A stretch of 45,467 bases of DNA. It comes from a virus. A program made the position numbers and the translations under genes. The first letter of the stretch is position 1, and each line of letters begins with the position of its first letter. This document shows, in pieces, positions 1-45,467 of this stretch. Location: positions 1 through 45,467 of IMG/VR virus record IMGVR_UViG_3300018954_000018; one strand, written 5' to 3'. The notes beneath the pieces were generated by a model, which was not told the DNA's origin, made no database searches, and worked only from the letters and a program-made list of their open reading frames with translations.

Positions 1-702
1 GACGCCGTCCGGGTCGCGGATGAGGTCAGCCAGCCAGACCTTGACGGTGGACCGGGCCATGCCGATGTGCTCGAAGTCGCTGTAGCCAACGGCGCGACCG
101 TCGGCCGGGAGGGCGGCCAGGAGGCGGCTGGCCGGGTCGGCCACCCGGCCCGGCCGACCGTCGGCCGGCCCGGCTGGTGGCGCCTCGGCCTGGCCGAGCT
201 GGCTGGCCACCTCCGCCACCGGCTCGGCCGGCCGGTCGCCGAGCTCGGCCAGGGCCACCGGCTCGGCTACCTCGGCCGGGTCGGCCGGCCGGTCCGATAC
301 CTCGGCCACGACCACCGGCGCCGGCTCGGCCAGGTGGTGCACCCGCCAGAACACCAGTAGCGGCACCACCGAGCACACCGCGGCCAGCCACCAGTGCAGG
401 TGGCCGACCCCGACCGTCCCGCTCGACCATGCGGTCGGCGTCGCGTACACGGCGTGGCTGCCCATGACGCTGGCCGCCACGATGACCACCGCACCGCCGA
501 CGTCTCGGCCGGCCGCCATCGCGGCCAGCACGTACATGTCCAAGGCCACCGGCGCCGCCCACGCCACGGCCGGTGGCCAGCCGACCGCGACCGCGAGCTG
601 CCACTCGCTCTGGGCGGCCAGGGCTAGCGCGGCCATCAGCGACACCAGCCGGCACCAGCCCGGCCAGCCGAGCCCGGCCAGCCGCCCGCGGGCGGCGGTC
701 AC
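1..702 (-). CDS. Spd-like membrane protein with C-terminal winged helix (cut by window end)
   Basis: The reading frame starts at GTG (700-702), which overlaps the stop of the upstream gene as GTGA, and runs off the left edge. Visible: about four hydrophobic segments in the first 130 residues, a Pro/Ala/Glu-rich linker with repeated ADPAEVAEPV-like stretches, then a helix-turn-helix region (around YSDFEHIGMARSTVKVWL). This layout resembles the DUF2637/Spd-type membrane proteins found beside traB in actinobacterial conjugative plasmids, which are thought to help plasmid spread between mycelial compartments. The terminal repeat lets the gene continue at 45467-45294, giving 245 residues. The last few codons at the left edge disagree with the right-end copy (see the terminal repeat). 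Family assignment is by architecture only. Confidence 0.72.
   Translation of the reverse strand, partial: MTAARGRLAGLGWPGWCRLVSLMAALALAAQSEWQLAVAVGWPPAVAWAAPVALDMYVLAAMAAGRDVGGAVVIVAASVMGSHAVYATPTAWSSGTVGVGHLHWWLAAVCSVVPLLVFWRVHHLAEPAPVVVAEVSDRPADPAEVAEPVALAELGDRPAEPVAEVASQLGQAEAPPAGPADGRPGRVADPASRLLAALPADGRAVGYSDFEHIGMARSTVKVWLADLIRDPDGV
13..138. repeat. 126-bp direct terminal repeat, left copy
   Basis: Identical to 45342-45467. Bases 1-12 differ as described for the right copy. It lies inside the Spd-like gene. Confidence 0.85.
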
Positions 703-1004
703 CGGCTGCCCCGCCGGATGCGGCGGCGCATCCGGGCCTCGGACCGGAAGACCCGGTACAGCAGCCCGGCCAGGGCAAGAGCGGCCAGGCCGACCAACAC
801 CGGTGCCACCCCGGGGCCCGCGCTGGCCGGCGCCTCGACCGCCACCTCGACGGCTGGCACCTGCGCTCGCGGCGCGTAGGCGTACACCAGCAGGGCAGCC
901 AGGGCCACCGTCCCGGCGCCGACGATCCACCGGCCGTACAGCGTCCAGATCGGCCAGCGCGACCCGAGGGTCTGGTTCGCGGCGCGTCGACGGTCCTCGT
1001 TCAT
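699..1004 (-). CDS. small two-helix membrane protein of the transfer operon
   Basis: 101 residues from ATG at 1002-1004. Two hydrophobic helices (about residues 27-44 and 65-83) are separated by an Ala/Pro/Val-rich stretch, and the C-terminus is very basic (RMRRRIRRGSR), presumably cytoplasmic. No enzymatic motif is seen. It sits between a hypothetical gene (21 bases upstream) and the Spd-like gene, which it overlaps by 4 bases, so the two are probably translationally coupled. Small membrane proteins of this kind are common in actinobacterial spd/tra clusters. A role in transfer or spread is inferred from position alone. Confidence 0.7.
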   Translation of the reverse strand: MNEDRRRAANQTLGSRWPIWTLYGRWIVGAGTVALAALLVYAYAPRAQVPAVEVAVEAPASAGPGVAPVLVGLAALALAGLLYRVFRSEARMRRRIRRGSR

Positions 1005-1024
1005 CGTGGTGCTGTCCTCTCCGG

Positions 1025-1453
1025 CTACTTCGTGGGGTCGATGCCCTGGGTGCGGATCTGCATGCTGCTGGGGTCGCCGATCGCCTGCAGCCACAGCGTG
1101 CGGGTCGCCGCGAACGCCTTCGCGGCCTCCTCCTCGGCGGCGGCGGCCTGCAGGAGGGACTTCCGGACCCGGCGGGCCGTCACGATCTTGTCGACACCGC
1201 CCGGCCACCGCGACGACTTCATGATCCCCCGGTAGATCAACTGCGCGGCCTCCCGCACGCCGTCCGACCCCGTCACCGAGTGCCGGCGGCACGTCGCCAG
1301 GTAGGTCAGGACACCCGACCCGGTGTGCAGGTTCGTGATGTCCAGGCCCGGGTGCGTGCGGGCCCGGTGCTGCGGCTCGGCGCTGCCCGCGGCGGCCCCC
1401 GCCGCCGCACGCCGCGACTGCGGACCGTTGCCGTTCAGGGTGGGTGCGGTCAT
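1025..1453 (-). CDS. hypothetical protein of the transfer operon
   Basis: 142 residues. ATG at 1451-1453 is chosen because AGGAG lies 8 bases upstream; an in-frame GTG three codons earlier would leave no spacing from that AGGAG. The N-terminal 30 residues are Ala/Gly-rich and probably disordered. The rest is helical, with a long Ala/Glu segment (LLQAAAAEEEAAKAF). No known family was recognised. It is the first gene after the repeat cluster at 1472-1607 and so follows the TraB-like gene in the same direction. Its frame is supported by the start context and by position in the operon. Confidence 0.68.
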   Translation of the reverse strand: MTAPTLNGNGPQSRRAAAGAAAGSAEPQHRARTHPGLDITNLHTGSGVLTYLATCRRHSVTGSDGVREAAQLIYRGIMKSSRWPGGVDKIVTARRVRKSLLQAAAAEEEAAKAFAATRTLWLQAIGDPSSMQIRTQGIDPTK

Positions 1454-1470
1454 CGTTCTCACTCCTAGTG

Positions 1471-1607
1471 CTTGGTCGGTGGTTTGGTCGGTGCCGGTCG
1501 ATCGTTTGGTCGGTCCATGCGTTTCCGCAGGTCAGAGGCGACCGACCAAGCGGAGGGCCGACCAAGTGCCCCTAGGGGAAAGAGGCGCGACCGACCAAGT
1601 TGGTCGG
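1471..1607. repeat. cluster of seven TTGGTCGG repeats, candidate clt/TraB recognition site
   Basis: Seven perfect copies of the 8-mer TTGGTCGG lie in the non-coding gap between the TraB-like gene and the next gene. Direct copies are at 1472, 1484, 1506 and 1600; inverted copies (CCGACCAA) start at 1542, 1558 and 1591. The last two copies form the 17-bp palindrome CCGACCAAGTTGGTCGG (1591-1607). A 10-bp palindrome CCCCTAGGGG lies inside the cluster (1569-1578). Streptomyces TraB proteins bind 8-bp repeats in a clt locus next to traB through a C-terminal winged helix. The position and repeat length match that arrangement, but the sequence differs from the TRS I know. An iteron origin or partition site is the main alternative. 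Confidence 0.7.
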
Positions 1608-1608
1608 G

Positions 1609-4016: not shown

Positions 4017-4289
4017 TCAGCGGGTGGGGGTGAGCCCGTGCGCGGCGTCGAGGAGCTCGAACGCCGTGGGGGCATCCGGGTCGCTGACCGGGAACCGGGC
4101 GGCCGGCCGCTCCCGCACCCGGCGGCAGCGGTACAGCAGCGCAGCGGACCCGACGACGACGCCCAGGCCGACGGGCGCGGGCGCGACCTCGACGACGACG
4201 GCGTCGACCGAGGCGAGCAGGGCGCTCGCGATGACGGCTCGGGCGCCGAGCGGCGCCGGCTGCCACCCGGCCAGCGGCCGGCGGGTCAC
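4017..4289 (-). CDS. small membrane protein upstream of traB
   Basis: 90 residues from GTG at 4287-4289, overlapping the stop of the zinc-ribbon gene as GTGA. Two hydrophobic stretches (about residues 18-35 and 39-55) are followed by a basic segment YRCRRVRERP and a soluble tail. It lies 20 bases upstream of the traB start, in the same operon. No family was recognised; the position suggests an accessory protein of the transfer apparatus. Confidence 0.68.
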   Translation of the reverse strand: MTRRPLAGWQPAPLGARAVIASALLASVDAVVVEVAPAPVGLGVVVGSAALLYRCRRVRERPAARFPVSDPDAPTAFELLDAAHGLTPTR

Positions 4290-4405
4290 GCCGCCACCGC
4301 CCGGACGGCGGGAGCGCAGCGGTTGCAGACCCGGAAGTCGACGCCGTCGAGCACGACGACCTGCTCGACCGGCTCGTGACGGCAGGACTCGCACCGGCCG
4401 CTCAT
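4286..4405 (-). CDS. 39-residue zinc-ribbon protein
   Basis: Very short frame (ATG at 4403-4405, stop at 4286-4288) with two paired cysteines, CESCRH near the N-terminus and CNRC further on. This forms a minimal CxxC...CxxC zinc ribbon. It overlaps both neighbours by 4 bases (ATGA upstream, GTGA downstream), which strongly supports translation. Function unknown; a small DNA- or protein-binding accessory of the transfer operon is likely. Confidence 0.68.
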   Translation of the reverse strand: MSGRCESCRHEPVEQVVVLDGVDFRVCNRCAPAVRAVAA

Positions 4406-4650
4406 GCCGGCACCGCCGCGGGACGGTCGACCTGAAAGCCGAACAGCCACCCGTCGTCCTCCCGGGCCATCGTGACGGTGGTGGCCTCCGCGTCACGCCG
4501 GACGCGCAGCTTCACGGACTCGCCCGGGAGCAGCGCCTCCGGCCCGCCGACCAGCTCGGGGACCGACAGGACGTACTCGGGGTTGTTGGGGTCGATCCGC
4601 ACCCAGTCGCGGTAGTGCTCGGCGGTGGCGATCACCTGTGCCCGGGTCAC
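4402..4650 (-). CDS. hypothetical protein, transfer operon leader
   Basis: 82 residues starting at GTG 4648-4650, overlapping the previous stop (GTGA) and overlapping the next start (ATGA). Mixed soluble sequence with beta-rich character in the second half (SVKLRVRRDAEATTVTMARE) and no membrane segment. Not recognised. Coupling to both neighbours shows it belongs to the transfer operon. Confidence 0.65.
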   Translation of the reverse strand: MTRAQVIATAEHYRDWVRIDPNNPEYVLSVPELVGGPEALLPGESVKLRVRRDAEATTVTMAREDDGWLFGFQVDRPAAVPA

Positions 4651-4748: not shown

Positions 4749-4791
4749 GTGACTAGTACGCCACCATGCCCTACCGTTAGTCAAGTGACTA
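4740..4791. promoter_or_regulatory. divergent promoter region with two palindromic operators
   Basis: Two related inverted repeats lie between the minus-strand transfer operon and the plus-strand regulator gene: ACTAGTCA-TG-TGACTAGT (4740-4757) and TAGTCA-AG-TGACTA (4778-4791). Their centres are 36 bp apart. The common core TAGTCA-N2-TGACTA looks like a dimer binding site, and each covers one outgoing transcription start zone. The most obvious candidate ligand is the adjacent regulator (4821-5018) or another HTH protein of the element. Promoter boxes are not clear enough to name. Confidence 0.68.
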
Positions 4792-4820
4792 TGGCGCTGA
4801 TGGAGGGGGGCGGCACTACC

Positions 4821-5018
4821 GTGACGCCCGTGCATCACCTCGTCGGCGTCCGCGAGATCATGGCCATGTTCCGCTTGTCGCGACAGCGCGTGGACCAGCT
4901 CGCCGCCGAGCCCGACTTCCCCGTGCCCACGGCCACGCTCGCGCAGGGCCGCGTGTGGGAGCGCACCGACATCGAGGACTGGGCCCGCAGCACCGGCCGC
5001 GAGATCGCCGACTCCTGA
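4821..5018 (+). CDS. AlpA/MerR-type helix-turn-helix regulator
   Basis: 65 residues from GTG at 4821, placed 10-14 bases after a GGAGGGGGG run; upstream in-frame ATGs lie in or next to the operator and would remove that spacing. The sequence VGVREIMAMFRLSRQRVDQL is a compact winged HTH followed by the Arg-Val-Trp wing typical of AlpA/excisionase-like proteins (GRVWERTDIEDW). Such proteins regulate transcription or direct excision. It is divergent from the transfer operon and likely acts at the two intergenic palindromes. It could instead be the recombination directionality factor. Confidence 0.75.
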   Translation: MTPVHHLVGVREIMAMFRLSRQRVDQLAAEPDFPVPTATLAQGRVWERTDIEDWARSTGREIADS

Positions 5019-6183: not shown

Positions 6184-6209
6184 GGGTTCAACTCCCCCCT
6201 CGCGCACCA
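6184..6209 (+). other. attP: attP core: 3' end of a tRNA, probably tRNA-Leu
   Basis: The 26 bases have the exact spacing of a tRNA 3' end: T-loop TTCAACT, a 5-base T-stem strand CCCCC, a 7-base acceptor strand CTCGCGC, discriminator A and CCA. The 5' part of a tRNA is absent upstream and the T-stem cannot close fully, so this is not a functional tRNA gene. It lies 65 bases before the integrase start. Integration into a host tRNA with the 3' end restored is the likely mechanism. From memory, the acceptor strand fits actinobacterial tRNA-Leu genes beginning GCGCGAG. Confidence 0.75.
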
Positions 6210-6274: not shown

Positions 6275-7420
6275 GTGCCCGACGCGAACGTGAACCTGCG
6301 GACCCTCCCCGACGGCCGGCAGCGATGGCGCCTGCAGTACCGGATCGACGGCCGGCAAGGCGTCCGGACGTTCAGCAACGAGAAGGCCGCGAGCCGCTGG
6401 CTCGCGGTCTTCCGTGCGCTCGGGCCCGCCGCCGCCCTACGCCTGCTCGACGCCGACGACACCCCGGACGCGACCACCGCGCTCACCGTCGCCGACGCCG
6501 TGCGCGAGCACCTCACCAGCCTCACGGGCGTCACCCGCGGCACCCTCGACTCCTACCGCCGCGAGGCCTCGCGCGACATCCTGCCGACGCTCGGCGACCT
6601 GCCCCTGACCGCGCTCGACCGCGACGTCGTCTCCGGCTGGGTGAACCGCCTCACCGAGCAGGGCCTCGCCGGGAAGACGATCGCCAACCGGCACTCCCTG
6701 CTGTCCGCCACGTGCGGGTGGGCGGTCGAGCGGGGCCACCTGCCCGGGAACCCGTGCCGCGGCGTGCGGATGCCGCGCACCCTCAAGCGCCGACCCGTCT
6801 TCCTCAGCCCGACCCAGGTCGCCGAGCTCCTCGACGCGCTCGGCGAGGTCGACGGCCGGTACCGGGGCCTCGTCCTGACGCTCATCGGCACGGGCATGCG
6901 CTGGTCCGAGGCGACCGCCCTGCAGGCGCAGCACGTCACCGACGACGTCGCGGTGCTGCGCCTGCACGTCGAGCAGGCCTGGAAGGACACCGACTCCGGG
7001 TCGATGAAGCTGGGCCCGCCGAAGACGCGCGCCGGCACCCGCACCATCCCCCTCGACCGACCGTCCCCCGTCGCCGACGTCATCGGGGCCGCGCTCGCCG
7101 GCACCCCGCCCGGCGGCTGGTTGTTCAGGTCTCCCCGCGGCGCCGTCGTCCGGAACGCCACCTTCCACACCCGCGTGTGGATACCGACCATGCGACTGCT
7201 GACCGACCGCGGGTGGGCGGTGCGCCCGAGCGTGCACGACCTACGGCACACCGCGGCGTCGCTCATGCTCGCGGCCGGCGCCGAGATCCACGCGGTGTCA
7301 TCGATCCTCGGCCACGAGCACGTGTCCACCACCGTCGACGTGTACGGGCACTTTCGCCCGGGGGCGAAGGAGGCCGCTCTACACGGCCTCGGCAGCCAGC
7401 TGGCCGCCGCGCTGCAGTAG
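6275..7420 (+). CDS. int: tyrosine-family site-specific integrase
   Basis: 381 residues from GTG at 6275. The N-terminal part has an arm-binding-like region (LPDGRQRWRLQYRIDGRQG) and a SAM-like core-binding domain. The catalytic domain has Arg209 (GTGMRWSEA), a Lys in the beta-hairpin region (PPKTRAGTRTI), His321-xx-Arg324 (HDLRHTA), His347 (ILGHEH) and nucleophile Tyr357 (VDVYGH). All catalytic residues are present and the length is normal. It would recombine the neighbouring attP with a chromosomal tRNA attB. The hairpin at the start codon and upstream repressor suggest tight control. The stop region overlaps a convergent small gene by 42 bases. Confidence 0.95.
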   Translation: MPDANVNLRTLPDGRQRWRLQYRIDGRQGVRTFSNEKAASRWLAVFRALGPAAALRLLDADDTPDATTALTVADAVREHLTSLTGVTRGTLDSYRREASRDILPTLGDLPLTALDRDVVSGWVNRLTEQGLAGKTIANRHSLLSATCGWAVERGHLPGNPCRGVRMPRTLKRRPVFLSPTQVAELLDALGEVDGRYRGLVLTLIGTGMRWSEATALQAQHVTDDVAVLRLHVEQAWKDTDSGSMKLGPPKTRAGTRTIPLDRPSPVADVIGAALAGTPPGGWLFRSPRGAVVRNATFHTRVWIPTMRLLTDRGWAVRPSVHDLRHTAASLMLAAGAEIHAVSSILGHEHVSTTVDVYGHFRPGAKEAALHGLGSQLAAALQ

Positions 7421-8741: not shown

Positions 8742-8957
8742 ATGAGCACGAAGGATCGCCGAGAAACCGGCCTCATCATTGGCAACCGGCGCCGCCGTCA
8801 CCAGCTCAGCCGGACTCAGCTCGCCGAGCGGCTCGGCTGCTCGACGAGCCACGTCCGGAACCTCGAGAACGGCTGGAGGCCGGTCACGCCCGCCCTCGCC
8901 ACCCGCCTCAACGCCGTCCTCGGCCTCGCCCTCCCGACCGACGGAGAGACCTCGTGA
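8742..8957 (+). CDS. Cro-like XRE helix-turn-helix protein
   Basis: 71 residues; ATG at 8742 is at the predicted 5' end of the transcript. A single XRE HTH fills almost the whole protein (LSRTQLAERLGCSTSHVRNL, then VTPALATRLNAVLGL). It is divergent from the CI-like repressor and first in the long plus-strand early operon, as expected of a Cro-type switch protein. The next gene overlaps its stop by 4 bases. Confidence 0.82.
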   Translation: MSTKDRRETGLIIGNRRRRHQLSRTQLAERLGCSTSHVRNLENGWRPVTPALATRLNAVLGLALPTDGETS

Positions 8958-9256
8958 CGACCCTCAACGAGCAGGCGAACCCCGCCGGCCTGCCCAAGCT
9001 CCTCGACACCGACGACCTCGCCACCTACCTCGGCATCAGCCCGTACACCGTCGAGCGCACCGCTCGCGCCGGCCTGATCCCGGGCGCCTTCCAGCTGGAG
9101 AACCGCGCCTGGCGGTACCCCGAGGACGGCGTCGTCGCCTACATCAAGGCGAAGCAGGCGCAGAGCGCCACCGTCACCGCGCTGCCCGCCCGCCCGGACC
9201 CCGACGGCGACGAGCACGGCCGCGTCCGCCGCCGCCGCACCGCCCGTGCCTCCTGA
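8954..9256 (+). CDS. AlpA/excisionase-like DNA-binding protein
   Basis: 100 residues from GTG 8954 (GTGA overlap, GGAGAG upstream). A MerR/AlpA-type winged HTH is visible (LLDTDDLATYLGISPYTVER, then WRYPEDGVVAYIKA), with a basic Arg-rich tail. Such proteins in actinophages act as excisionases or early regulators. Position directly after the Cro-like gene fits an excisionase expressed at induction; a transcription factor is the alternative. Confidence 0.75.
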   Translation: MTTLNEQANPAGLPKLLDTDDLATYLGISPYTVERTARAGLIPGAFQLENRAWRYPEDGVVAYIKAKQAQSATVTALPARPDPDGDEHGRVRRRRTARAS

Positions 9257-11313: not shown

Positions 11314-11317
11314 CCCC

Positions 11318-11680
11318 GTGGCCGAGACGTGCACGAAGTGCTCCGCACCCGTCAAGTACGTCCTGACGGTCGGCGGTCGCCGTGTGCCCCTCGAGCCGGA
11401 CCCGCACCCCGCCGGCACCCACGTACCCGTCAAGGTCGGCGGCCAGACCCGCTCCCGGGTCCTCGGCGGCGGGGAGCTGCCCGCCCAGGAACCCGCGTGG
11501 CGCGACCACCGCACCACCTGCTCCGCCGGGAAGCACGCCAGCGACCGCGCTGCCCGCCTGCGACCGAAGTGCCGCGTCTGCACGAAGCCGATGGACCCCG
11601 AGCTCGCCTACCTCGAGCAGTGGGAGACCCACCCCTCATGTGACCCCGCCCACCACACCGACGAGACGAGGACCGCGTGA
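11318..11680 (+). CDS. zinc-finger protein
   Basis: 120 residues from GTG 11318. Cysteine pairs appear at both ends: CTKCSAP near the N-terminus and CRVCTKP with a later THPSCDP. An intervening beta-rich segment and CSAGKH complete two likely zinc sites. This pattern recurs in actinophage early proteins of unknown role. Its stop overlaps the methyltransferase start (GTGA). Confidence 0.62.
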   Translation: MAETCTKCSAPVKYVLTVGGRRVPLEPDPHPAGTHVPVKVGGQTRSRVLGGGELPAQEPAWRDHRTTCSAGKHASDRAARLRPKCRVCTKPMDPELAYLEQWETHPSCDPAHHTDETRTA

Positions 11681-13252
11681 GCACGACCACCCTCGACGAG
11701 CGCATCGTCCTGGAGGCCTTCGCCGGCCCCGGCGGCTGGTCAACCGGCCTGCGCATGCTCGACCAGCCCTGCCGCAGCATCGGCGTCGAGTGGGACCGCG
11801 ACGCCTGCCGCACTGCCCACGCCGCCGGGCACCTGCGCGTCCGCGCCGACGTCGCCCGCTTCGACCTGACCGAGCTCGCCGCCGTCTGGCTCCTCATCAT
11901 GTCGCCGCCCTGCCAGGCGTGGTCCCGGTCCGGGAAGCGCAAGGGCATCCTCGACCAGGCCGCGATCTTCCAGCACGCCCAGCGCGTCACCGGCGCCGGC
12001 CGGTGGCTGCCCTACACCGACGCCGGCCCGCTCCCAGCCGGAGAGGGCGACGGCGGCGGCACCTGGAACGACGCGCGCTCCCCGCTGGTCCTTGAGGTGC
12101 TGCGCTGGGTGCTCGCCGTCCAGCCCGCCCACATCGCTCTCGAGCAGGTCCCGGATGTCCTGCCGTTCTGGCACCTGATCGCCCGCTGGCTGCGGGGGCT
12201 CGGGTACAACGCATGGGCCGGGGCGCTGTCCGCCGAGCGGTACGGCGTCCCCCAGACCCGGGAGCGGGCGATCCTCATCGCGTCGCGCGAGCGGGCGGTC
12301 ACCGCCCCGGCCGCCACGCACACGGCCTACGACAGCCGGCTCCCGGACGGCGGACGATGGCACGGCGCCGACGGCGACCTGTTCGGCGGCGGCCTCGCCC
12401 CCTGGGTGTCGATGGCCGACGCGCTGGGATGGACCCCTGCCGTCGTGGTGAACACCCGCGGGGACAGGCAGACCCCCGGCGGGAACGAGTTCAGCGCCGA
12501 CCGGCCCTCCTGGGCGCTCACGGAGAAGACCCGGTCCTGGACCGTCCGGACCGGCAACAACACCACCGCGACCGACGGGTCGAAGGGGCTGCAGCGCTAC
12601 GAGCGGCCTGTCGACCACCCAGCGCCGGCCCTAGACACGAACGTCGGCGCGAAGTGGCGGGTCGGGATGGGCGATGTCCGCCAGGCCAACGGGACCGTCC
12701 GCGCGACGGACGAACCCGCCGGGACCATCACCGCGTCCCTCGACAACGGCAACCACCGCTGGCTCCTGCACACCAACCGCGACCAGCGCCCTGACGGCAC
12801 ACGCCAGGTCATCGACCCCTCCGAGCGGCCAGCCCCGACCCTGACCGCCAAGTCGGGCGGGCAGTGGGTCTACGTCAACGGCAACCAGGCCAACGCCGGT
12901 CCGGCGCGACATCACCGAGCCTGCCCCGACGGTCATGTTCGGCGAGCGATCGAACAAGGTCGAGTGGGTGCACGAGCGTCCAGCTACCACCGTCGCGGGT
13001 GACCCGCGTATCGCCGAACCCGGCCACCGCGACCGAGAGGGCGGCCGGGCGCGGTTCGACGGCGACTCCATCCGCGTCACCGTCGAGGAAGCCGCCGTCC
13101 TGCAGAGCTTCCCGCCGGCCTACCCGTGGCAGGGCACCAAGTCCGCGCGGTTCCGCCAGGTCGGTGACGCCGTCCCCCCGCTGCTCTCCGCTCACGTCCT
13201 CGCCGCCGTCCTCGGTGTCCCCGCACCGACGCACCAAGAGGTGAGCGCCTGA
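11677..13252 (+). CDS. C5-cytosine DNA methyltransferase, interrupted by a frameshift
   Basis: The first frame (GTG 11677 to stop 13002) has AdoMet motif I (EAFAGPGGWSTGL), catalytic motif IV SPPCQAW with Cys79, motif VI ALEQVPD and motif VIII QTRERAILIA, then a target region with repeated AxTLT/AGTIT units. The C-terminal motifs IX-X (VLQSFPPAYPW, FRQVGDAVPP) lie in another frame that ends at 13252. The junction lies near 12893-12902. Removing one base (the T at 12900) would give a continuous protein of about 524 residues. Either this is a broken gene, a sequencing error, or an unusual frameshift. Such enzymes protect phage DNA from host restriction. Confidence 0.85.
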
Positions 13253-13404
13253 TGCCCCGCCACTGCCAGTGCTCGTCCACGACCCGGTGCTGCCCCGTCC
13301 TGGGCCACCCCGGGCACATCACCCCCCACCGCTGGTGCCTCAACGCCGACCTGACCCGACCCACCACGCCCACCGCGGGGCCAGCACCGAGGAGCAACCG
13401 ATGA
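13252..13404 (+). CDS. 50-residue Cys/His-rich protein
   Basis: ATG 13252 overlaps the methyltransferase stop (TGATG), and the stop overlaps the next ATG (ATGA). The N-terminal half has five cysteines and several histidines (RHCQCSSTTRCCPVLGH, then HRWC), suggesting zinc binding. The tail is Pro/Thr-rich. Found only by its overlaps and composition; function unknown. Confidence 0.55.
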   Translation: MPRHCQCSSTTRCCPVLGHPGHITPHRWCLNADLTRPTTPTAGPAPRSNR

Positions 13405-14252: not shown

Positions 14253-14299
14253 CCCGCCAGCACCACCCCGCGCCCGCCACCACCGAACGGAGCACCACC

Positions 14300-17226: not shown

Positions 17227-17242
17227 CGCCCATGCTGGGCAC

Positions 17243-19573: not shown

Positions 19574-19774
19574 ATGATCGCCCGTGTCACCACCGGCCTC
19601 GAGGTGCTCGGCATCCTCGTGCTCACCACCGCCCTCGGCCTGGCCGTCCACCAGCGCGCCGGACTGATCTGGGCACTGGTCGCAGCTGGGCTGGCCCTGT
19701 TCGCGTGGAGCTGGGTCGTCGAGCTCGTCCGCGGTGAGCCCCGGCACCGGCCGCCCCAGCGGGGAGCCTCGTGA
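19574..19774 (+). CDS. small two-helix membrane protein
   Basis: 66 residues; GGAGG six bases before ATG 19574. Two hydrophobic helices (about 10-25 and 30-50) with a short basic tail. Sits between terL and portal with a 4-base overlap to the latter. Function unknown; small membrane proteins at this place occur in actinophages. Confidence 0.65.
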   Translation: MIARVTTGLEVLGILVLTTALGLAVHQRAGLIWALVAAGLALFAWSWVVELVRGEPRHRPPQRGAS

Positions 19775-25927: not shown

Positions 25928-25975
25928 AGTGATCAGTCGACCAGTGGCTTCTACGCCTACGGGTCGGCCCCGACG

Positions 25976-27229: not shown

Positions 27230-27253
27230 CCCGATGCACCGAAAGGACCGCCC

Positions 27254-29296: not shown

Positions 29297-29324
29297 TCAA
29301 CGCTCGCTGAAAGGAGGTACGACG

Positions 29325-32314: not shown

Positions 32315-32766
32315 TGCCGGCGCCCGTCCTCGCCGTCAAGGCCGCGGTGGTGACCCTGATCGGCGCCCTGTTCCCCGACACCAGCGCGGTGCAGGCCGCC
32401 TACGGCACCCCCGGCGCAGTCGCCGCCCAGGACGTCGTGCTCGTCGGCGACGCCCGGGTGACCGTGTCCCGGCCGACGATGGGCCCGCGGCGCTCCCGCG
32501 AGCACGCGATCGAACTCGACGTCGTCTTCGACTGCTTCCGCTTCGGCGGCGCCGAGCAGCAGCAACCCGCCACCGAGGCGGCGCTCGCCGCCCTCGACGT
32601 GCTTGAGGAGCACCTGCGCGTCCCCGGGAACGAGACCCTCACCGGCACCTGCCGGGAGGCCTGGGTGTCCGGCTACGAGCTGACCGAGCCGGACGACGCC
32701 GAGGAGACCGGCCAGGGCCGGCGCTCCATCGTCACCGCCACCATCACCGCCGCCGTCCGCACCTAG
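32314..32766 (+). CDS. tail completion/terminator-like protein
   Basis: 150 residues; ATG 32314 overlaps the previous stop (TGATG). Alpha/beta sequence with VVLVGDARVTVSRPTMGPRR and ELDVVFDCFRFGG. It lies between connector and tail tube, where phages encode tail completion or tail-terminator proteins. Assigned by size and position. Confidence 0.65.
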   Translation: MPAPVLAVKAAVVTLIGALFPDTSAVQAAYGTPGAVAAQDVVLVGDARVTVSRPTMGPRRSREHAIELDVVFDCFRFGGAEQQQPATEAALAALDVLEEHLRVPGNETLTGTCREAWVSGYELTEPDDAEETGQGRRSIVTATITAAVRT

Positions 32767-32774
32767 GAGCCCTC

Positions 32775-33164
32775 GTGACCACGTACCTGCGCAACGTCTC
32801 CCCACTCGGGGACCTCTCGGTGCCCTTCGTCGGCTTCGTGCCCGCCGGCGGCTACTTCGCCGTCGACGACACCCGGGCCGGCAAGCCGCCGACCGACTTC
32901 ACCGAGGTCGACCCCGAGGACCCCGAGCAGCCGGCCCCGCACCTCGTGCGCGAGGTCGTGGAGGACGGGATCGTCGTGCGCCGTGAGGCGTACGACCCCG
33001 GCACCGGCCTGCTGCAGCAGGCCGAGCACTACGAGAAGGCCACGAAGAAGGCCCACGACGAGTGGCTCAAGTCCCGCGAGGACGCCGCGAAGGCCGGCGA
33101 CGGCGCGACCACCGCTACCCCCGCGCCCGCCACCCCCGGCGGCAACCAGAACCCGGAGGCCTGA
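32775..33164 (+). CDS. hypothetical head-tail junction protein
   Basis: 129 residues from GTG 32775 (TAGGAG upstream). A beta-rich first half (LGDLSVPFVGFVPAGGYFAV), a charged helical second half (YEKATKKAHDEWLKSREDAA) and an Ala/Thr/Pro tail. Placed directly before the tail tube gene; function unknown. Confidence 0.58.
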   Translation: MTTYLRNVSPLGDLSVPFVGFVPAGGYFAVDDTRAGKPPTDFTEVDPEDPEQPAPHLVREVVEDGIVVRREAYDPGTGLLQQAEHYEKATKKAHDEWLKSREDAAKAGDGATTATPAPATPGGNQNPEA

Positions 33165-33167
33165 CCC

Positions 33168-34193
33168 ATGGCGACGTTCCAGGACTGCTCGATCGGGATC
33201 TCGGTCCCCGAGTCGACGTACAAGACGTACGTCGCGCCGACGCGCTTCTACGAGTTCATCAGCGAGTCGGTGAACTGGCAGAAGAACGTCAAGCAGGGCC
33301 AGGGCCTGCGGGTCGGCAGCCGCGTCCCGCGGTCCGGGCGCCGGTTCACCGCCTCCGCCGGCGGGGCCGGCACCTTCCAGGTGGAGTGGCCGTCGAAGGG
33401 CGGCGGCCTGCTGCTGCAGGCCGCGCTCGGCGGGGCCACCTCGACCGTCGTGGCGGCGACCACCGCCTACCAGCAGGTGTTCACCCTCGCCGACGTCCCG
33501 CCGTCGTTCACGCTGCAGAAGGGCATCCCGCGCGTCGACCAGGCCACGGTCGACGCCTACACCTTCCTCGGCTGCATGGTCGGCTCCCTCGAGTTCTCCA
33601 TCCCGAACAGCGACCTCGCGCAGGCGACGTTCAACATCGACGCCGGGGACATGACCACCGCGCAGGGCTACGTCGCCCCGACCTACACCGGCTCCCCGGT
33701 GAACCTGTTCCCCTTCACCGTGGCGTCGATCTCCCTCGGCGGCACGCTCACGGCGCCGACTACCACCGCGCTCGCCACGGTGACCGGCGCCAGCGCCGCC
33801 AGCGTGCGGTCCGCGTCGATCTCGATCAACAACAACCTGAACGTCGAGCGGTACAACCTCGGCGGCGGCGGCCGGAAGGCGAAGCCGACCGTCGGCATGC
33901 GGGCGATCTCCGGGTCGATGACCCTCGAGTACGACAGCGTGACCTACCGGGACGCGTTCCTCAACGAGACCGACCTCGCGCTGCTGATCAACCTCGTCGG
34001 CACCACGAACGCCGGTACCGGCCGTCCCGAGCAGCTGCAGATCGCGTGCCCGAACATCCGGTTCGACACCCAGCTCCCGGAGGCCAACGGCGGCGACCTG
34101 ATCACCGTCGACATGGGCTTCACCGTGCTCGACAACACCGTCGCCGCGCAGCCGATCTGGATCACCCAGACGACGAGCGACACCGCCCTGTGA
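33168..34193 (+). CDS. major tail tube protein
   Basis: 341 residues from ATG 33168, four bases after the previous stop. Sequence is almost entirely beta-strand, with Thr/Ser/Gly richness and segments such as QGLRVGSRVPRSGRRFTASA and LEFSIPNSDLAQATFNIDAG, characteristic of actinophage tube subunits. It is longer than many, perhaps with an added domain. The gene is followed by tail-assembly genes in normal order. Confidence 0.85.
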   Translation: MATFQDCSIGISVPESTYKTYVAPTRFYEFISESVNWQKNVKQGQGLRVGSRVPRSGRRFTASAGGAGTFQVEWPSKGGGLLLQAALGGATSTVVAATTAYQQVFTLADVPPSFTLQKGIPRVDQATVDAYTFLGCMVGSLEFSIPNSDLAQATFNIDAGDMTTAQGYVAPTYTGSPVNLFPFTVASISLGGTLTAPTTTALATVTGASAASVRSASISINNNLNVERYNLGGGGRKAKPTVGMRAISGSMTLEYDSVTYRDAFLNETDLALLINLVGTTNAGTGRPEQLQIACPNIRFDTQLPEANGGDLITVDMGFTVLDNTVAAQPIWITQTTSDTAL

Positions 34194-35169: not shown

Positions 35170-35321
35170 AGGCCTCGATCTACGAGTACCTCCTGCCGGT
35201 CTCCCACGTCTGGCCCGGCGTGACGTGGGAGGTCGTGCTCCGGCTGCCCTACCACGTGTGGTGTCTGTACGTCGCGAACGCTGACGAGTGGCTCAAGGCC
35301 ACCGCGAAGGGAGGACTGTGA
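34777..35321 (+). CDS. tail assembly chaperone, -1 frameshift form (gpGT-like)
   Basis: A second frame, -1 relative to the short form, is open from 35064 to the stop at 35319-35321. It continues as FPVDDVEASIYEYLLPVSHV and VTWEVVLRLPYHVWCLYVAN. It has no start codon of its own in that part, so it is probably made by a programmed -1 frameshift between 35064 and 35169. C-CCT-TCG at 35085-35091 would allow the Pro tRNA to slip from CCT to CCC and is a possible site. The stop overlaps the tape measure ATG (TGATG). Confidence 0.72.
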
Positions 35322-38300
35322 TGCCCGGCAGCTCCCTGACCTTCAGCCTGTTCGGCAAGGACGTCTCGGCGGGCTCGGCCATGAGCGAGCTCGGGCGCCA
35401 TGCCGCCGCGACGGGCCGGCAGATCCAGAGCATGTCCGGGGCGCTGTCCGGCGCCGGCATCGGCACCGTCGCGCTCGGCTCGATCGCCGCGAACGCCTTC
35501 AGCGGCATCGCGCAGGCCGCGCAGGACGCCGGTCGCGCCGTCCTGGGCACCGTCGCCGCGAATGAGCAGGCGGCGATCTCGTTCGAGACCCTGCTCGGCT
35601 CGGCGGAGCGCGCGTCCGCCTTCATGACCGAGCTGAAGGACTTCGCCAAGTCCACCCCGTTCGAGACCGGCCCGCTCACCCAGTACAGCAAGGCCCTGCT
35701 CGGCGCCGGCTTGGCCGCCGAGCACGTGGTGCCCTTCCTGACCGCCTGGGGCGACGCCTCGGGCGCCCTGGGGCAGACGCAGGAGCAGTTCGGCCGCACC
35801 ATGACCGCGGTCACCCAGATCATGTCCAAGGGCAAGGTCTCGGCCGAGGAGCTCGGTCAGATCGCCGAGTCGGGCATCCCGATCTGGTCGGTCCTGTCGC
35901 GCGCCCTGGGCAAGCCTGCCGGCGAGCTGATGAAGCTCGGCGAGCAGGGCAAGCTCGTCGCGAAGCAGGTGCTCCCCGCGCTCGAGGCGCAGATGCGCAA
36001 GGACTACGGCGGCGCGATGGGCAAGCAGGCCCAGACGCTCAACGGCCTCTGGTCGACCCTCATGGACACCCTGAAGCAGGGGACCGCCGACGCGCTGCTG
36101 CCCGTGCAGGACGAGCTCAAGGGCGGCCTGACGCGCTCGATCGAAGTCGCCGGTCGGGTCACCGGCTGGCTCGCCGACACCGGCGTCCCCGCCTTCGCCC
36201 GGTACGGCCAGGCGTTGCGCGACCACCTCGTCGGGCCCTGGCGTGCCGCCAGTGACTTCCTGCACGAGACCGCCCTGCCCGCCCTGCGCGAGGTCGCGGA
36301 GTGGGTCGACGAGAACAGCGAGAAGCTCAAGCTCGGCGCCGCGGCCATCGCCGGCGTCGTGGTCGCGATGCAGGGCCTCTCCCTGGCCTCGAGCGGGCTC
36401 GCGGCGCTCGCCGCCCTGGCGAACCCGATCGGCATCGCCGTGGTGGCCGTGGGGGCCCTGGCCGGTGGCCTGACGTACCTGTACCAGAACAGCGAGCCAG
36501 TCCGGGCCTTCCTGGACGACCTCGGCGGCAGGGTCATGCCGGTGCTGCAGGGCGCTGCCGAGGCGGTGGGGGACTACTGGTCGAACAGCCTGTCGCCCGC
36601 GCTGGCCGACTTCGGCTCCGCCGTCCTGCCGCCGCTGGTCGAGGCGTGGGAGTCGCTCGTCGAGAACTTCGGCGTCGGCACCCCGACCTTCGAGGCCGCG
36701 GGCGCCGCCCTGAAGATCCTCGGCGCGTTCGTCTCGAACCTGCTCCTGCCGTGGCTGAAGATGCTCGTCGTCGAGGGCCTCGGCCGGCTGAAGGCCGCCT
36801 TCGACGTGATCGGCCCCGTGCTGAACAACGTCGTCGTGCCGGCGCTGAAGTTCCTCATGCAGGTAGGGCTCCAGGTGTTCAAGGGCCTGCTGATGGCCGC
36901 CGCCGACGCCTTCGGCTGGGTGCCCGAGATCGGCGACAAGCTGCGGAACGCGAGCGACAGGTTCAACGCCTTCGCCGACGACGTGAACCGCTCCCTCGAC
37001 GCGATCAACTCGACGAAGACGATCACCATCGCGATGACGTCGACCGGCGACCCGTCGGGCTCGGTGTACGAGTCGCAGGTCCCGGGCGCTGCCCGCGGCA
37101 GCGGCGGCGACTCGCGGTACAAGCCGCTCGCCAACACGCCCCTCTCGGGTGGGTCGAACCAGGCGAAGATCTGGAACTACTTCAAGGGTCAAGGATTCAC
37201 TGACGCCTCGAGCGCCGGTGTCATCGCCAACCTGATCGCCGAGTCCGCGCTGAACCCGAAGGCGATCCAGAAGGGCGGCCCCGGCCGGGGCCTGGCGCAG
37301 TGGTCGCTCGGCGAGCGGTGGATGCAGCTGCAGTCCTGGGCCACGAAGGGCAAGCGCAACCCCTGGGACCTCGGCACCCAGCTCGACTACCTCATGCGCG
37401 AGCTCGGCAAGGCGCCCGGCACCGCCGGGGCATTCACCGGCGACCTCGGCAAGCTCAAGGGCATGACGTCGTCCGCGGACGCCGCCGCCTACTTCATGCG
37501 CACCTTCGAGCGACCGAAGAACACCGACCCCTCGGCCCGCCAGCGGGTCGCCGCCCGCGTGTACGCGCAGATGAAGGGCAAGGGCGGCACCACCGCGCCG
37601 TCCGGCGGCAGCGGCGGTGGTGGCACCGGGTACGAGGGCATCGCCGACGCCGCGTCCTCGTCGAAGGCGAGCAGCGACGCCGCGCGGAAGGCGAGCAGCG
37701 ACGCCGCGCGGAAGGCGAGCGAGGCCGCGCGCAAGGCCGCCCTGAACGCCCTCCGCAAGGATCTCTCGGACGGGCTCATGGCCGCCCTGACCGGCACCCG
37801 GGCCCAGGTCCGGGCCCGGCTGTACCTCCTGATGGAGGACGTGACGAAGCTCGGGTCGGCCGTCGGGCGGCGGATCGTCTCCACCACGGCGCGGACCCTG
37901 CTCCCGCTGGCCTCCCAGCACGACGCCGTGATCAAGCGCCTGGAGAAGGCGCAGGCCGACCTCAAGGGCCTGCGCGACGCCTCCCGCCAGTTCGCCCGGC
38001 AGACGTGGGAGTCCACGATCGAGTCCGGCAACGTCACCACCTCCGACGACCGCTCGTTCGGTGGGATCGCCGAGAAGCTGCGGCAGTCCGTCGTCGCCGC
38101 GCGCAAGTTCGCCGACGCCATGGCCGAGCTCAAGCGCCGCGGCCTCGGCGTCGAGGCGCTCAAGCAGCTGACCGCCGCCGGCCCCGAGCAGGGCCTCGCC
38201 TACGCGCAAGGCATCCTCGCCGCCGGGAAGAAGGGCATCGCCGAGATCAACCGGCTGCAGGGGCAGCTCGGCCAAGCAGGGTCGTCCCTGGGCAACACCA

Positions 38301-38749
38301 CCGCCGACGCCATGTACGCCGCCGGCATCCGGTCCGCCGAGGGGCTGGTCAAGGGCCTGCAGTCCCAGCGCAAGGCTTTGGAGGCGATCATGTCCGGGCT
38401 CGCGCAGGCCATGGCCGCCGCCCTGCGCAAGGCGCTGGGGATCAAGTCGCCGTCGGTCGTCTTCGCCGGCATCGGCGACCAGATCGGGGCCGGCCTGATC
38501 ATGGGCCTCGACCGCCAGGCGGCGCCCGTGACCAGCACCGCCGCGGGCCTGATCTCCCGGGCGGCGTTCGCCGGCCCCGCCGGCGGCCGTGGCGGCCCCC
38601 GGTTCGTGCCGCACCAGGCGCGGACCGAGACGCACATTCACCTGAACCGCGCGCTCGTGGGCAACGAGCAGCACATCGCGCGCGTGCTCGGCGTCGCGCA
38701 GCGCCGTACTGCTGGCCGCGGCGTCACCATCGCCGCGGGCGCACGATGA
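35321..38749 (+). CDS. tape measure protein with tail lysozyme domain
   Basis: 1142 residues from ATG 35321. Features: tape-measure segment near the start (LRF-like MSELGRHAAATGRQ, ETLLGSAERASAFMTELKDF), a hydrophobic region (AAAIAGVVVAMQGLSLASSG), then at about residues 610-752 a phage-tail-lysozyme-like domain (FTDASSAGVIANLIAESALN, LAQWSLGERW). A repeat region and a long helical tail follow. The protein sets tail length and its lysozyme part may open the thick cell wall during DNA injection. Length would predict a tail of roughly 170 nm by the usual 0.15 nm per residue rule. Confidence 0.9.
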   Translation: MPGSSLTFSLFGKDVSAGSAMSELGRHAAATGRQIQSMSGALSGAGIGTVALGSIAANAFSGIAQAAQDAGRAVLGTVAANEQAAISFETLLGSAERASAFMTELKDFAKSTPFETGPLTQYSKALLGAGLAAEHVVPFLTAWGDASGALGQTQEQFGRTMTAVTQIMSKGKVSAEELGQIAESGIPIWSVLSRALGKPAGELMKLGEQGKLVAKQVLPALEAQMRKDYGGAMGKQAQTLNGLWSTLMDTLKQGTADALLPVQDELKGGLTRSIEVAGRVTGWLADTGVPAFARYGQALRDHLVGPWRAASDFLHETALPALREVAEWVDENSEKLKLGAAAIAGVVVAMQGLSLASSGLAALAALANPIGIAVVAVGALAGGLTYLYQNSEPVRAFLDDLGGRVMPVLQGAAEAVGDYWSNSLSPALADFGSAVLPPLVEAWESLVENFGVGTPTFEAAGAALKILGAFVSNLLLPWLKMLVVEGLGRLKAAFDVIGPVLNNVVVPALKFLMQVGLQVFKGLLMAAADAFGWVPEIGDKLRNASDRFNAFADDVNRSLDAINSTKTITIAMTSTGDPSGSVYESQVPGAARGSGGDSRYKPLANTPLSGGSNQAKIWNYFKGQGFTDASSAGVIANLIAESALNPKAIQKGGPGRGLAQWSLGERWMQLQSWATKGKRNPWDLGTQLDYLMRELGKAPGTAGAFTGDLGKLKGMTSSADAAAYFMRTFERPKNTDPSARQRVAARVYAQMKGKGGTTAPSGGSGGGGTGYEGIADAASSSKASSDAARKASSDAARKASEAARKAALNALRKDLSDGLMAALTGTRAQVRARLYLLMEDVTKLGSAVGRRIVSTTARTLLPLASQHDAVIKRLEKAQADLKGLRDASRQFARQTWESTIESGNVTTSDDRSFGGIAEKLRQSVVAARKFADAMAELKRRGLGVEALKQLTAAGPEQGLAYAQGILAAGKKGIAEINRLQGQLGQAGSSLGNTTADAMYAAGIRSAEGLVKGLQSQRKALEAIMSGLAQAMAAALRKALGIKSPSVVFAGIGDQIGAGLIMGLDRQAAPVTSTAAGLISRAAFAGPAGGRGGPRFVPHQARTETHIHLNRALVGNEQHIARVLGVAQRRTAGRGVTIAAGAR
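37664..37732 (+). repeat. 24-base repeat in the tape measure gene
   Basis: Two identical units (37664-37687, 37688-37711) encode KASSDAAR and a third shortened one (37712-37732) KASEAAR. Such helical repeats change tape-measure length when copy number changes. Confidence 0.7.
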
Positions 38750-42695: not shown

Positions 42696-42962
42696 ATGCC
42701 CACCCGTGAGCCCCTGATCTCCACTGCGACCGCCGTCGCGGTCGTGACCGCCGTCATCGCCCTCCTCGTCGCGTTCGGCGTCGGCCTGAACGACGACCAG
42801 CGGACCGCGATCCTCGGCTTCACCGCCGTCGCCGTCCCCCTGGTCACCGCGCTGCTCGCCCGCAGCAAGGTCACCCCGACCGCCGACCCGCGCAACGACG
42901 CCGGCGACCGGCTGGTCCCCGCCGACCTGCCCGAGGGCGGCAGCACCTTCCGCACCCTGTGA
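42696..42962 (+). CDS. holin
   Basis: 88 residues; GAAGGAG upstream of ATG 42696. Two hydrophobic helices (about 10-30 and 40-57) joined by LNDDQRTAIL and a polar tail. Its stop overlaps the endolysin start (GTGA). Size, topology and position fit a class II holin that forms the membrane hole for the endolysin. Confidence 0.78.
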   Translation: MPTREPLISTATAVAVVTAVIALLVAFGVGLNDDQRTAILGFTAVAVPLVTALLARSKVTPTADPRNDAGDRLVPADLPEGGSTFRTL

Positions 42963-43813
42963 CCACCTACCTGCGGCGCGCGGACTGGACGCGCACCGCG
43001 CCGCGCAAGGCGCTCGCCGCGCTCGACCCGGACCGCCTGCGCGGCTTCGCCGTCCACTGGCCCGGCTCGGCCGCACCGCTCGGCGACCTCACGCAGACGC
43101 AGGTCGCCCGCCGCCTCGAGTCCTACCGGGCCATGCACACCGCCCCCGGTGGCATCGGCACGAAGACGGGCGCCTCAGACATCGCCTACCAGGTCGCGAT
43201 CGACCAGGAGGGCCGCGTGTGGCCGCTGCGCGGGGTTGCCTCGAGGTCGGGCGCGAACGGCGACGCTGGCCTGAACGCGCTCTGGGGCGCCGTCCTGCTG
43301 CTCGTCGGCCCGGGGGAGCAGCCGTCGCGCAAGCTCGTGCACGCCGTCCAGGACTTCCGTGAGGACGTCTGGCTCAAGCGCTACCCGAAGGCGACCCGCG
43401 TCGTCGGGCACCGCGACCTCCACGGCACCGCATGCCCGGGGCCGCTGGTGTACGAGCTCGTCACCCGCGGCGTCTTCCGCCGCCCACCCGCCCCGCCGGT
43501 GGCGCCCAAGCCGCCGGCACCGCCCTCGAAGGGAACCGACGTGGCAGAGCTGACGACCCGCGACATCCGGGAGGCCGTGCTCGGCACGAGCTACCGGGAG
43601 TACGTCGACGAGAACGGCGACGCCGTGCGCAACCCGCGCACGATCGCCGACTTCATCGTCTCGAGCCACCGCAACACCGTCGAGATCGAGCACCGGCTCC
43701 AGGCGCTGCAGGACGTGCTCGTCGCCCGGGACGACGCGCAGACGGCGCTCCTGCGGGAGATCCGCGACGCCGTCGCCCCGCCGCCCGCCCCGGTGGAGGC
43801 GGCGCGAGGGTGA
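42959..43813 (+). CDS. endolysin, N-acetylmuramoyl-L-alanine amidase
   Basis: 284 residues from GTG 42959. Amidase_2-type domain in the N-terminal 175 residues, with zinc ligands His33 (FAVHWPG), His151 and Cys159 (GHRDLHGTACPG). A Pro-rich linker leads to a helical C-terminal region (IREAVLGTSYREYVDENG, IVSSHRNTVEIEHRLQALQD), probably for wall binding or oligomerisation. Cuts the bond between muramic acid and the stem peptide. Confidence 0.9.
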   Translation: MTTYLRRADWTRTAPRKALAALDPDRLRGFAVHWPGSAAPLGDLTQTQVARRLESYRAMHTAPGGIGTKTGASDIAYQVAIDQEGRVWPLRGVASRSGANGDAGLNALWGAVLLLVGPGEQPSRKLVHAVQDFREDVWLKRYPKATRVVGHRDLHGTACPGPLVYELVTRGVFRRPPAPPVAPKPPAPPSKGTDVAELTTRDIREAVLGTSYREYVDENGDAVRNPRTIADFIVSSHRNTVEIEHRLQALQDVLVARDDAQTALLREIRDAVAPPPAPVEAARG

Positions 43814-43963: not shown

Positions 43964-45142
43964 CTACTGCTGCACCCACCTGTCGAGGACGGCGGCCGCC
44001 ACGGTCGGCGCCGGCGGGCCCTCGACGCTCGTCTCGGCGGTGTGCGCGGTCGTGTAGACGCTCACCTTGTCCCCGGCCACCACCGGCAGCGACAGGCTGA
44101 CGTAGGGCTGCCCGGCGACCATGTTGGGCGCGGTCTCCGTGCGGTCACCGACCCGCAGGTGCACCCAGTAGACGTAGGGGGCGCCGGGGGTGATGGCGAC
44201 CCGGTACGTGACCCGCTTCGGGCCCTCGCACTCGCACGTCTTGATGAGCCGGACGATGACGGGGCAGATGATCGTGGTCGCCCCGGTCGCCCGGTCGACG
44301 TGCCCGCCGCCGAGGATCACCTGGTGCCCGGCGCTCGGCCGGTTGAGCCACACCGTGCTCGACGACGGCACGACCGCGGTCGCGCGGACGGTCGCGCCGA
44401 ACCCTTCGGGCGTGACCGCGAACCGAGCCCGGCCGCGCCGGTCGGTGCGGGCCTGGGACTTCGCGACCTTGGCCTTCGTGCCGGTGAGCGTGACCAGGGC
44501 ACCGGCGGCGGGCCGCCCCCCGGTGGTCACGGTGACCGTGACGGTGCCCCGCTGCTTCGGGAGCAGCTGAGGTGCGGCGACCTTCATGGCGAGCTTGCCC
44601 GCCGTGACCGACGCCGCCAGCAGCGCCCGGTACCCGGCGCGGTCGCCGGGCGTGAGCTGGGCGATGTACCCCGGGAGGTCGGCGCGCAGCGCGAGGGCCT
44701 GCTGCTGCCCCGCCCTCGTCGGCTGACCGGCGGGGTCCTGAGCGATGAGGGTCGCCAGGGCGAACCAGACGCGGGCGTTCGCGTGCGCCCGGTCGCCAGC
44801 CCGGGGCGCGTTGACGATGTACGCCGCCCGGGCGACGGCCGCCTTCGGCATGACCGCGGCGGCCGTGCCCGTACCGACCCTCCCGTTCGGCGCGAGCAGG
44901 TTGTACGAGACGCACCACCCCTCGCGACCGTTGAGGACGTACGACCCGGCCCACATGGTGCGGGACACGCTGTGGTGCTTCCCGGCCTTGAGGGCGAGGC
45001 CGGGGCCCTTGACGAGCGTCGGCTTCGCGGTGGCGGCACGCGCCACCGGGGCGGGGGCGGCCTGGGCGGGTGGCGCGGCGACTGCCGCGCCGGACAGCGC
45101 GGCGACGAGCACCGCGCCGAGGGATGCCAGAGACTTGCGCAT
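43964..45142 (-). CDS. large secreted protein, thioester-domain-like plus Ig-like domains
   Basis: 392 residues from ATG 45140-45142 with AGGAG seven bases upstream. A signal peptide (RKSLASLGAVLVAALSGAAV to AQAA) is followed by a domain at about 45-175 with GWCVSYNLLAPNGRVG and HANARVWFALATLI. The spacing recalls actinobacterial thioester surface domains, though the expected Gln near AxxAxW is not seen. A transthyretin/Ig-like domain follows (VTVTVTTGGRPAAGALVTLT), then a C-terminal beta domain with CxC (KTCECEGP). No sortase signal. It lies downstream of the transfer operon on the same strand, so it may be a surface factor for cell contact, or a lysogenic conversion gene. Confidence 0.7.
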   Translation of the reverse strand: MRKSLASLGAVLVAALSGAAVAAPPAQAAPAPVARAATAKPTLVKGPGLALKAGKHHSVSRTMWAGSYVLNGREGWCVSYNLLAPNGRVGTGTAAAVMPKAAVARAAYIVNAPRAGDRAHANARVWFALATLIAQDPAGQPTRAGQQQALALRADLPGYIAQLTPGDRAGYRALLAASVTAGKLAMKVAAPQLLPKQRGTVTVTVTTGGRPAAGALVTLTGTKAKVAKSQARTDRRGRARFAVTPEGFGATVRATAVVPSSSTVWLNRPSAGHQVILGGGHVDRATGATTIICPVIVRLIKTCECEGPKRVTYRVAITPGAPYVYWVHLRVGDRTETAPNMVAGQPYVSLSLPVVAGDKVSVYTTAHTAETSVEGPPAPTVAAAVLDRWVQQ

Positions 45143-45170
45143 GATCCAACTCCTACGAGGTTGGGTCAGG

Positions 45171-45235
45171 GGCAGCCCCACCCCGTCGACCCGCACTCGA
45201 GGTGCAACTCGCGTGCGGTGAGCGGTGGGGCTGCC
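45171..45235. terminator. extended hairpin between the Spd-like gene and the secreted-protein gene
   Basis: GGCAGCCCCACC (45171-45182) pairs with 45224-45235, and inside it CCGCAC (45191-45196) with GTGCGG (45213-45218). It follows the stop of the transfer operon on the minus strand and precedes the secreted-protein start, so it may end the operon or act as its attenuator. Confidence 0.65.
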
Positions 45236-45293
45236 CTGCGGGTGATGCAGGTGGGTGGTGCAGCCGGCCCCCGCCGGACAGCTGTGGATGGGG

Positions 45294-45467
45294 TCAGACG
45301 TTGCGGGCGAAGCGGCCGGGCGCGACCCGGACGGCGTCCCCGTCGCGGATGAGGTCAGCCAGCCAGACCTTGACGGTGGACCGGGCCATGCCGATGTGCT
45401 CGAAGTCGCTGTAGCCAACGGCGCGACCGTCGGCCGGGAGGGCGGCCAGGAGGCGGCTGGCCGGGTC
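45294..45467 (-). CDS. C-terminal part of the Spd-like protein (rest at window start)
   Basis: The frame entering from the right edge encodes 57 residues and stops at 45294-45296. Its winged-helix segment is the same as that encoded by 13-138. Joined to 702-139 it completes the 245-residue membrane protein in one frame, which supports circularity. The final sequence is IRDGDAVRVAPGRFARNV. Confidence 0.8.
   Translation of the reverse strand, partial: DPASRLLAALPADGRAVGYSDFEHIGMARSTVKVWLADLIRDGDAVRVAPGRFARNV
45342..45467. repeat. 126-bp direct terminal repeat (copy of 13-138)
   Basis: Bases 45342-45467 equal 13-138 exactly. The first 12 bases of the window do not continue the match: they are the inverted form of the spacer 45327-45341, which lies between the 6-bp inverted repeats CGCGAC (45321-45326) and GTCGCG (45342-45347). 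The pattern fits a circular molecule assembled with an end overlap plus a small inversion or fold-back at the left tip. Circular size would be 45,329 bp. Confidence 0.85.

Follow-up and report, generated by a model that had tools for sequence, protein, structure and literature searches.

Streptomyces plasmid-phages provide the closest described parallel to the element examined here. Two of them, pZL12 and pFP4, are described in two articles as conjugative episomes able to produce phage particles (PMC3583192; PMC4170104). A second point of comparison is the actinomycete integrative and conjugative element (AICE), defined by the combination of an integrase (Int), a transfer gene (Tra), and a replication gene (Rep) of the RepSA, RepAM, or Prim-Pol type (PMC3218068), and a third is PhiNon1 of Nonomuraea gerenzanensis, a prophage known in both a tRNA-integrated and a circular form (PMC5431353). 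Here we analyzed the IMG/VR virus record IMGVR_UViG_3300018954_000018 over its whole length of 45,467 nucleotides (hereafter the window), in which phage genes share a circle with a minus-strand operon that includes a TraB-like translocase gene. The gene content points to a temperate HK97-type siphophage of an actinobacterium that would integrate into host DNA, and we consider it probable that this integrative phage acquired, or kept, a TraB-type module for the transfer of double-stranded DNA (dsDNA). The initial annotation of this DNA knew of no described example with both gene sets so complete, a claim that does not stand in view of the two reported conjugative, phage-producing plasmids and of the gene sets of pFP3 and pFP4. 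The combination of the two modules is thus known, and recurrent; the new part is that the element is integrative, with no plasmid replication or partition gene detected in the window.

Like the window, pZL12 and pFP4 (Zhong 2010; Chen 2012) combine phage genes with a gene for plasmid transfer on a single circle. Both pFP4 and pFP3 (Streptomyces sp. F2, NC_023067) resemble the window further in having head and tail genes, an integrase, and a TraB-family protein, and both encode a DUF2637 protein; in pFP3 the head is of the HK97 type, the integrase is a tyrosine integrase, and the terminase large subunit (TerL) is 41% identical to that of the window. These plasmids differ from the window, however, in encoding ParA (pZL12 and pFP4), ParA with DnaB (pFP3), and a primase-polymerase (pFP4), and scans of the window detected neither ParA nor a primase-polymerase. 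In pZL12 the resemblance of the translocase to TraB is distant (E=1.7e-4). As a candidate for the closest precedent we also considered pPaSha2 (Pseudonocardia alni), which has phage genes, an "FtsK", DUF2637, and an integrase, and rejected it because its FtsK is EccC/FtsK-like and not TraB.

AICEs and Streptomyces conjugative plasmids (pSAM2, pJV1, pSN22, and pWTY27) share with the window a TraB, an Spd-like protein, and an array resembling clt, the transfer site, 3' of traB, and AICEs additionally an Int at a tRNA 3' end. They differ in that the window has a full phage morphogenesis module and no RepSA, RepAM, or Prim-Pol gene was found in it. Held against the AICE definition, the window has Int and Tra, with a phage-type replication initiator in place of the AICE Rep: no RepAM or Prim-Pol match appeared in Pfam and NCBIfam scans, and RepSA was not seen. 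Its attP core equals the 3' end of tRNA-Leu(CAG), as is usual for tyrosine-integrase AICEs. Held against the plasmid-phages, it has the phage genes, and plasmid replication and partition genes were not detected. Because the plasmid Rep/Par genes and the AICE Rep gene are both undetected, we file the window under neither heading; it appears to be an integrative form of the conjugative plasmid-phages already described, equipped with a predicted clt, that would work like both a plasmid-phage and an AICE. PhiNon1, tRNA-integrated and circular by turns, parallels the cycle predicted for the window but integrates at tRNA-Val.

The translocase consists of N-terminal membrane segments, an FtsK/HerA-type motor, and a C-terminal winged-helix-like domain that aligns with the TraB winged helix. 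It matches NCBIfam NF041214 (plasmid_TraB) over residues 42–552 (E=1.3e-113, 380.7 bits) and, by tblastn, Streptomyces plasmid TraB at 34% identity (E ~1e-57), results that bear out its initial description as TraB/FtsK-like. In a tree the protein falls on the side of plasmid TraB and apart from chromosomal FtsK, on a long branch that makes its exact placement uncertain; the grouping with FtsK proteins lacking a transfer role, which the initial annotation had named as the contrary outcome, was not found. The TraB signatures R-S-A/V-G and S-x-Q-R are present, the Walker A motif is intact (GMAGAGKT), traB is a long, uninterrupted reading frame with strong codon bias, and a profile built from the aligned TraB family matches solved FtsK motor structures in the PDB. 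A plain FtsK identity was rejected on the plasmid_TraB profile and the tree. Scans of viral and genome contigs with TraB peptides returned no close relative, and no relaxase family turned up in general Pfam/NCBIfam scans of the window proteins.

The strongest evidence for the transfer module is a short-repeat array, absent from the initial annotation, that lies in the gap separating the stop of traB (1609) from the start of the next gene (1453). Seven copies of TTGGTCGG or CCGACCAA fall within 1472–1607 (136 bp), out of nine in the whole window; in simulated genomes of the same third-order composition (n=40), no 8-mer exceeded four copies per 140 bp. The array occupies the same position relative to the translocase gene as the experimentally defined clt of pWTY27, which lies directly 3' of that gene and includes 7-bp repeats (PMC3583192), and TraB is reported to recognize 8-bp repeats (PMC4170104). 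Applied to pJV1 and pWTY27, the same simple repeat counter finds the repeats published for them (CCGCACA and TGACACC, respectively). At least four copies of one 8-mer occur in the 280 bp 3' of traB in 19 of 27 IMG/VR contigs that encode a TraB relative. The corresponding control counts are 13 of 506 for random stretches and 22 of 943 for stretches that follow other open reading frames (ORFs) (≈2.5%). Such an array is not universal, because pFP3, pFP4, and pZL12 have no comparable exact-repeat (7/8-mer) array 3' of the translocase gene. The motif differs from element to element (TGACACC, GGTGCCAC, CGGAACAG, GGTGCAAC, CGTCCGGA, and others in loci L131–L158), and these arrays form a possible catalogue of TraB-clt specificities. 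The array in the window is likely the docking site of its TraB. More generally, short repeats immediately 3' of traB offer a simple means, open to test, of predicting which elements can transfer, and they make TraB-clt specificity accessible to systematic study.

Just upstream of the integrase gene lies the attP core. All 26 bp recur exactly in the tRNA-Leu(CAG) 3' ends of 5 of 397 sampled Actinomycetota genomes, and variants with one or two mismatches in ≈80 further genomes of the same sample, whereas a reversed control pattern gave 0 matches; ARAGORN called tRNA-Leu(CAG) at all seven loci checked. ParA (PF13614) had no match in the window, and Pfam/NCBIfam scans of the proteins tested turned up no plasmid Rep or Par family. 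With neither detected, we predict that the lysogen is integrated rather than plasmid-like. In the cycle we propose, the circle would integrate, by means of its integrase, at the 3' end of a tRNA-Leu(CAG) gene, and after excision it could be packaged into HK97-type virions. By an alternative route, a TraB hexamer at the membrane would grip the TTGGTCGG repeats of clt via its C-terminal winged helix and pump the circle, as intact dsDNA, into a cell in contact, where an Spd-like membrane protein would help it spread through the recipient. If both routes are active, one element would travel as a virus as well as through contact between cells. Immunity directed at the virions would then fail to block it, and the range of hosts it reaches could depend on the route. 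As read from the sequence, the clean repeat array argues for activity of the transfer module and a Walker B residue argues against it.

Several observations weigh against a working TraB-type module on a phage. The translocase score of 380.7 bits is below the NF041214 equivalog cut-off of 800 bits, and the protein is divergent, sharing no more than 32% identity with the closest TraB in the alignment. Its Walker B motif, YLYVGFQEAA, has QE (FQEA) instead of EE/DE, the glutamine being encoded by CAG; among 32 aligned TraBs, only that of the window has Q at the first acidic position, and the change could make the hydrolysis of ATP less efficient. Assignment of the neighboring genes as TraA-like and Spd-like is weak. 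A search of 22 terminase-related viral records gave no TraB match. Finally, the operon occurs in one assembly alone, and since no other IMG/VR contig was found with it, its linkage to the phage depends on that assembly.

Some of these points would also fit a module that recombination brought in from a plasmid or AICE and that is now a decaying, inactive passenger, the element spreading in virions only; we regard this as unlikely. The unique Walker B glutamine favors it, as do the TraB-free terminase relatives, which make the module dispensable for the phage, and the divergence of the accessory genes, among which there is no convincing TraA. The candidate TraA, encoded by the gene that follows the array, reaches E=0.0092 and 16 bits with NCBIfam NF041213 (plasmid_TraA; cut-off 80), 8.4 bits with a purpose-built TraA profile, and an hhalign probability of 8%, and has no tblastn match to plasmids; its identity as TraA is doubtful. 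Against decay stand the long, intact, codon-biased traB frame, the retained DNA-binding domain and Walker A motif, and the clean, cognate-looking array, which is not expected to persist in a decaying module.

Spd proteins of Streptomyces plasmids are linked with intramycelial spreading, and the window encodes a DUF2637-like protein, so that TraB and Spd might instead serve mainly to move the excised circle across the septa of one colony. Such spreading across septal cross walls is described in PMC4170104. We think it improbable that this is the module's main role, given that a TraB and a clt-like array are parts that suffice for inter-strain transfer in plasmids such as pWTY27 (PMC3583192), and movement within the mycelium would not exclude mating transfer. 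For the Spd-like membrane proteins named at the outset, the topology agrees, and sequence support is transitive and confined to the gene at the start of the window: its product shares 27% identity over 252 residues with a protein from a phage-plasmid, which in turn has a sub-threshold match to PF10935 (DUF2637), and Pfam scans gave it no direct PF10935 match.

A chimeric assembly, joining a phage to a plasmid or an AICE, is very improbable. In its favor are the single assembly with the operon and the extent of a second contig, L130, which is 100% identical to 11334–22240 and limited to that interval; the phage part was thus assembled independently at least once. On the other side, positions 13–138 repeat 45342–45467 without a mismatch for 126 nt (three mismatches fall in the 12 outermost bases of the contig), giving a unique circle of 45,329 bp, and the first minus-strand ORF of the window crosses the junction to a stop at 45294 as a single 245-residue protein. 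This overlap and read-through uphold the placement of both modules on the same circle, and closure inside the transfer operon weakens the chimera explanation. No composition outlier was seen in the window. Distant relatives also carry both modules, one of them in the same gene order: IMGVR_UViG_3300046557_000579 (G435) runs from tail and endolysin genes through a minus-strand TraB and a methylase to TerL, portal, and capsid, as the window does, and has its own integrase and no ParA match. Recurrence of the layout in this independently assembled relative disfavors a plasmid-phage chimera, an outcome the initial annotation had set against its own proposal. Least credible of all is an FtsK-like phage protein with no role in DNA transfer: a weak match to phrog_1358 (1.9e-4; FtsK/SpoIIIE-like, moron/host takeover) favors it, but the families it matches best are plasmid TraB and phrog_24831, which has no known function, none of 50,697 phage records matched the translocase at 1e-5, and both the C-terminal winged helix and the repeats 3' of the gene are characteristic of TraB.

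The search for relatives with both modules extended to IMG/VR at large, where an alignment-based scan found at least 29 contigs with distant TraB relatives. Three structural families were searched in them, and TerL, capsid, or portal was present in 20 of the 29, among the matches listed; isolate-genome records may join a prophage to a neighboring element, and not all 20 need be true hybrids. A tyrosine integrase was found in 12 of the 22 tested for one. G435 and IMGVR_UViG_3300045107_000255 (G440) resemble the window in having TraB with TerL, portal, and capsid and a repeat array 3' of traB, and differ in that shared genes are mostly at 23–48% protein identity and the repeat motifs are others. 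The survey indicates that the pairing of TraB with phage genes is recurrent in actinobacterial viral contigs. Tentatively, it may reflect widespread actinobacterial integrative prophages with two working routes, virions and TraB/clt dsDNA mating, with no plasmid phase and with a phage-specific TraB-clt code readable 3' of traB.

Phage genes were assigned by PHROGs and Pfam profile matches (Table 1). The initial description of complete phage modules largely holds, with packaging, head, tail, lysis, and integrase genes all matched; "complete" is slightly generous, as no small terminase was recognized in the scans of the phage genes. No tRNA genes or Rfam families were found in the window.

Table 1. 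Coordinates of the features of the window, with the basis of each assignment.
Feature	Coordinates	Strand	Basis
Divergent DUF2637/Spd-like membrane protein, 245 aa across junction	1..702 + 45294..45467	-	topology; transitive similarity
Small membrane protein, 101 aa, overlaps next gene	699..1004	-	hydropathy; no family
Small protein, weak TraA-like similarity, 142 aa	1025..1453	-	NF041213, doubtful
Predicted clt (transfer site), 155 non-coding bp	1454..1608	.	repeat array directly 3' of traB
traB-like dsDNA translocase, 795 aa	1609..3996	-	NF041214, tblastn, tree, motifs
Small membrane protein, operon, upstream of traB	4017..4289	-	hydropathy
Cys-rich ORF, 39 aa, operon	4286..4405	-	no family
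Small protein, operon	4402..4635	-	no family
Small helix-turn-helix/excisionase-like protein	4791..5018	+	by eye; without NCBIfam match
attP core, 26 bp, identical to tRNA-Leu(CAG) 3' end	6184..6209	+	sequence match
Tyrosine integrase	6275..7420	+	PF00589 4.6e-17; phrog_1 1.9e-69
Excisionase/MerR-like regulator	8954..9256	+	phrog_66 8.9e-11
C5 cytosine DNA methyltransferase	11677..13002	+	PF00145 9.8e-21
Phage replication initiation protein	13401..14252	+	phrog_2447 3.4e-38
RusA-like Holliday junction resolvase	14300..14845	+	phrog_244 1.2e-13
Terminase large subunit (TerL)	18096..19559	+	phrog_9 3e-76
Portal protein	19771..20928	+	phrog_12 5.8e-60
Prohead protease	20915..21628	+	phrog_80 6.5e-36
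HK97-type major capsid protein	21719..22960	+	phrog_10 1.7e-70
Tail fibre/spike genes, GH26-like, GH8, beta-helix domains	23639..31394	+	domain matches
Head-tail adaptor, two small genes, tail tube protein	31448..34193	+	phrog_442 2.5e-26; PF18906 7.1e-31
Tape measure protein with tail lysozyme domain	35321..38749	+	PF20155, PF18013
Holin and endolysin (amidase)	42696..43813	+	phrog_9752, phrog_1493

Within the tail region, 23639–27229 encodes a GH26-like domain and, separately, a GH8 (cellulase/chitosanase-type) protein, both uncommon as phage tail enzymes, which suggests a polysaccharide-coated host. Adjoining the transfer operon, the minus-strand gene at 43964–45142 encodes a secreted protein with a signal peptide and sub-threshold Ig-like (Big_1) similarity, for which no plasmid homologue was found; it could be a surface or contact protein. 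The motif CTCTGACCTGC occurs in the window at 1527 (minus strand), 5787, and 16791 (both plus strand), as well as in L004, L049, L052, L071, L072, and L073. It is found in many actinobacterial phages and plasmids and is possibly a promoter or operator element common to them. In pWTY27 (L106), a gene annotated as a phage major capsid protein lies near traB (10642–12102 of that record) and is perhaps the remnant of a phage hybrid. A 40,999-bp Allokutzneria contig (NODE_28, L064) encodes a TerL 54% identical to that of the window and, at a read coverage of 2547, is probably a high-copy phage or phage-plasmid.

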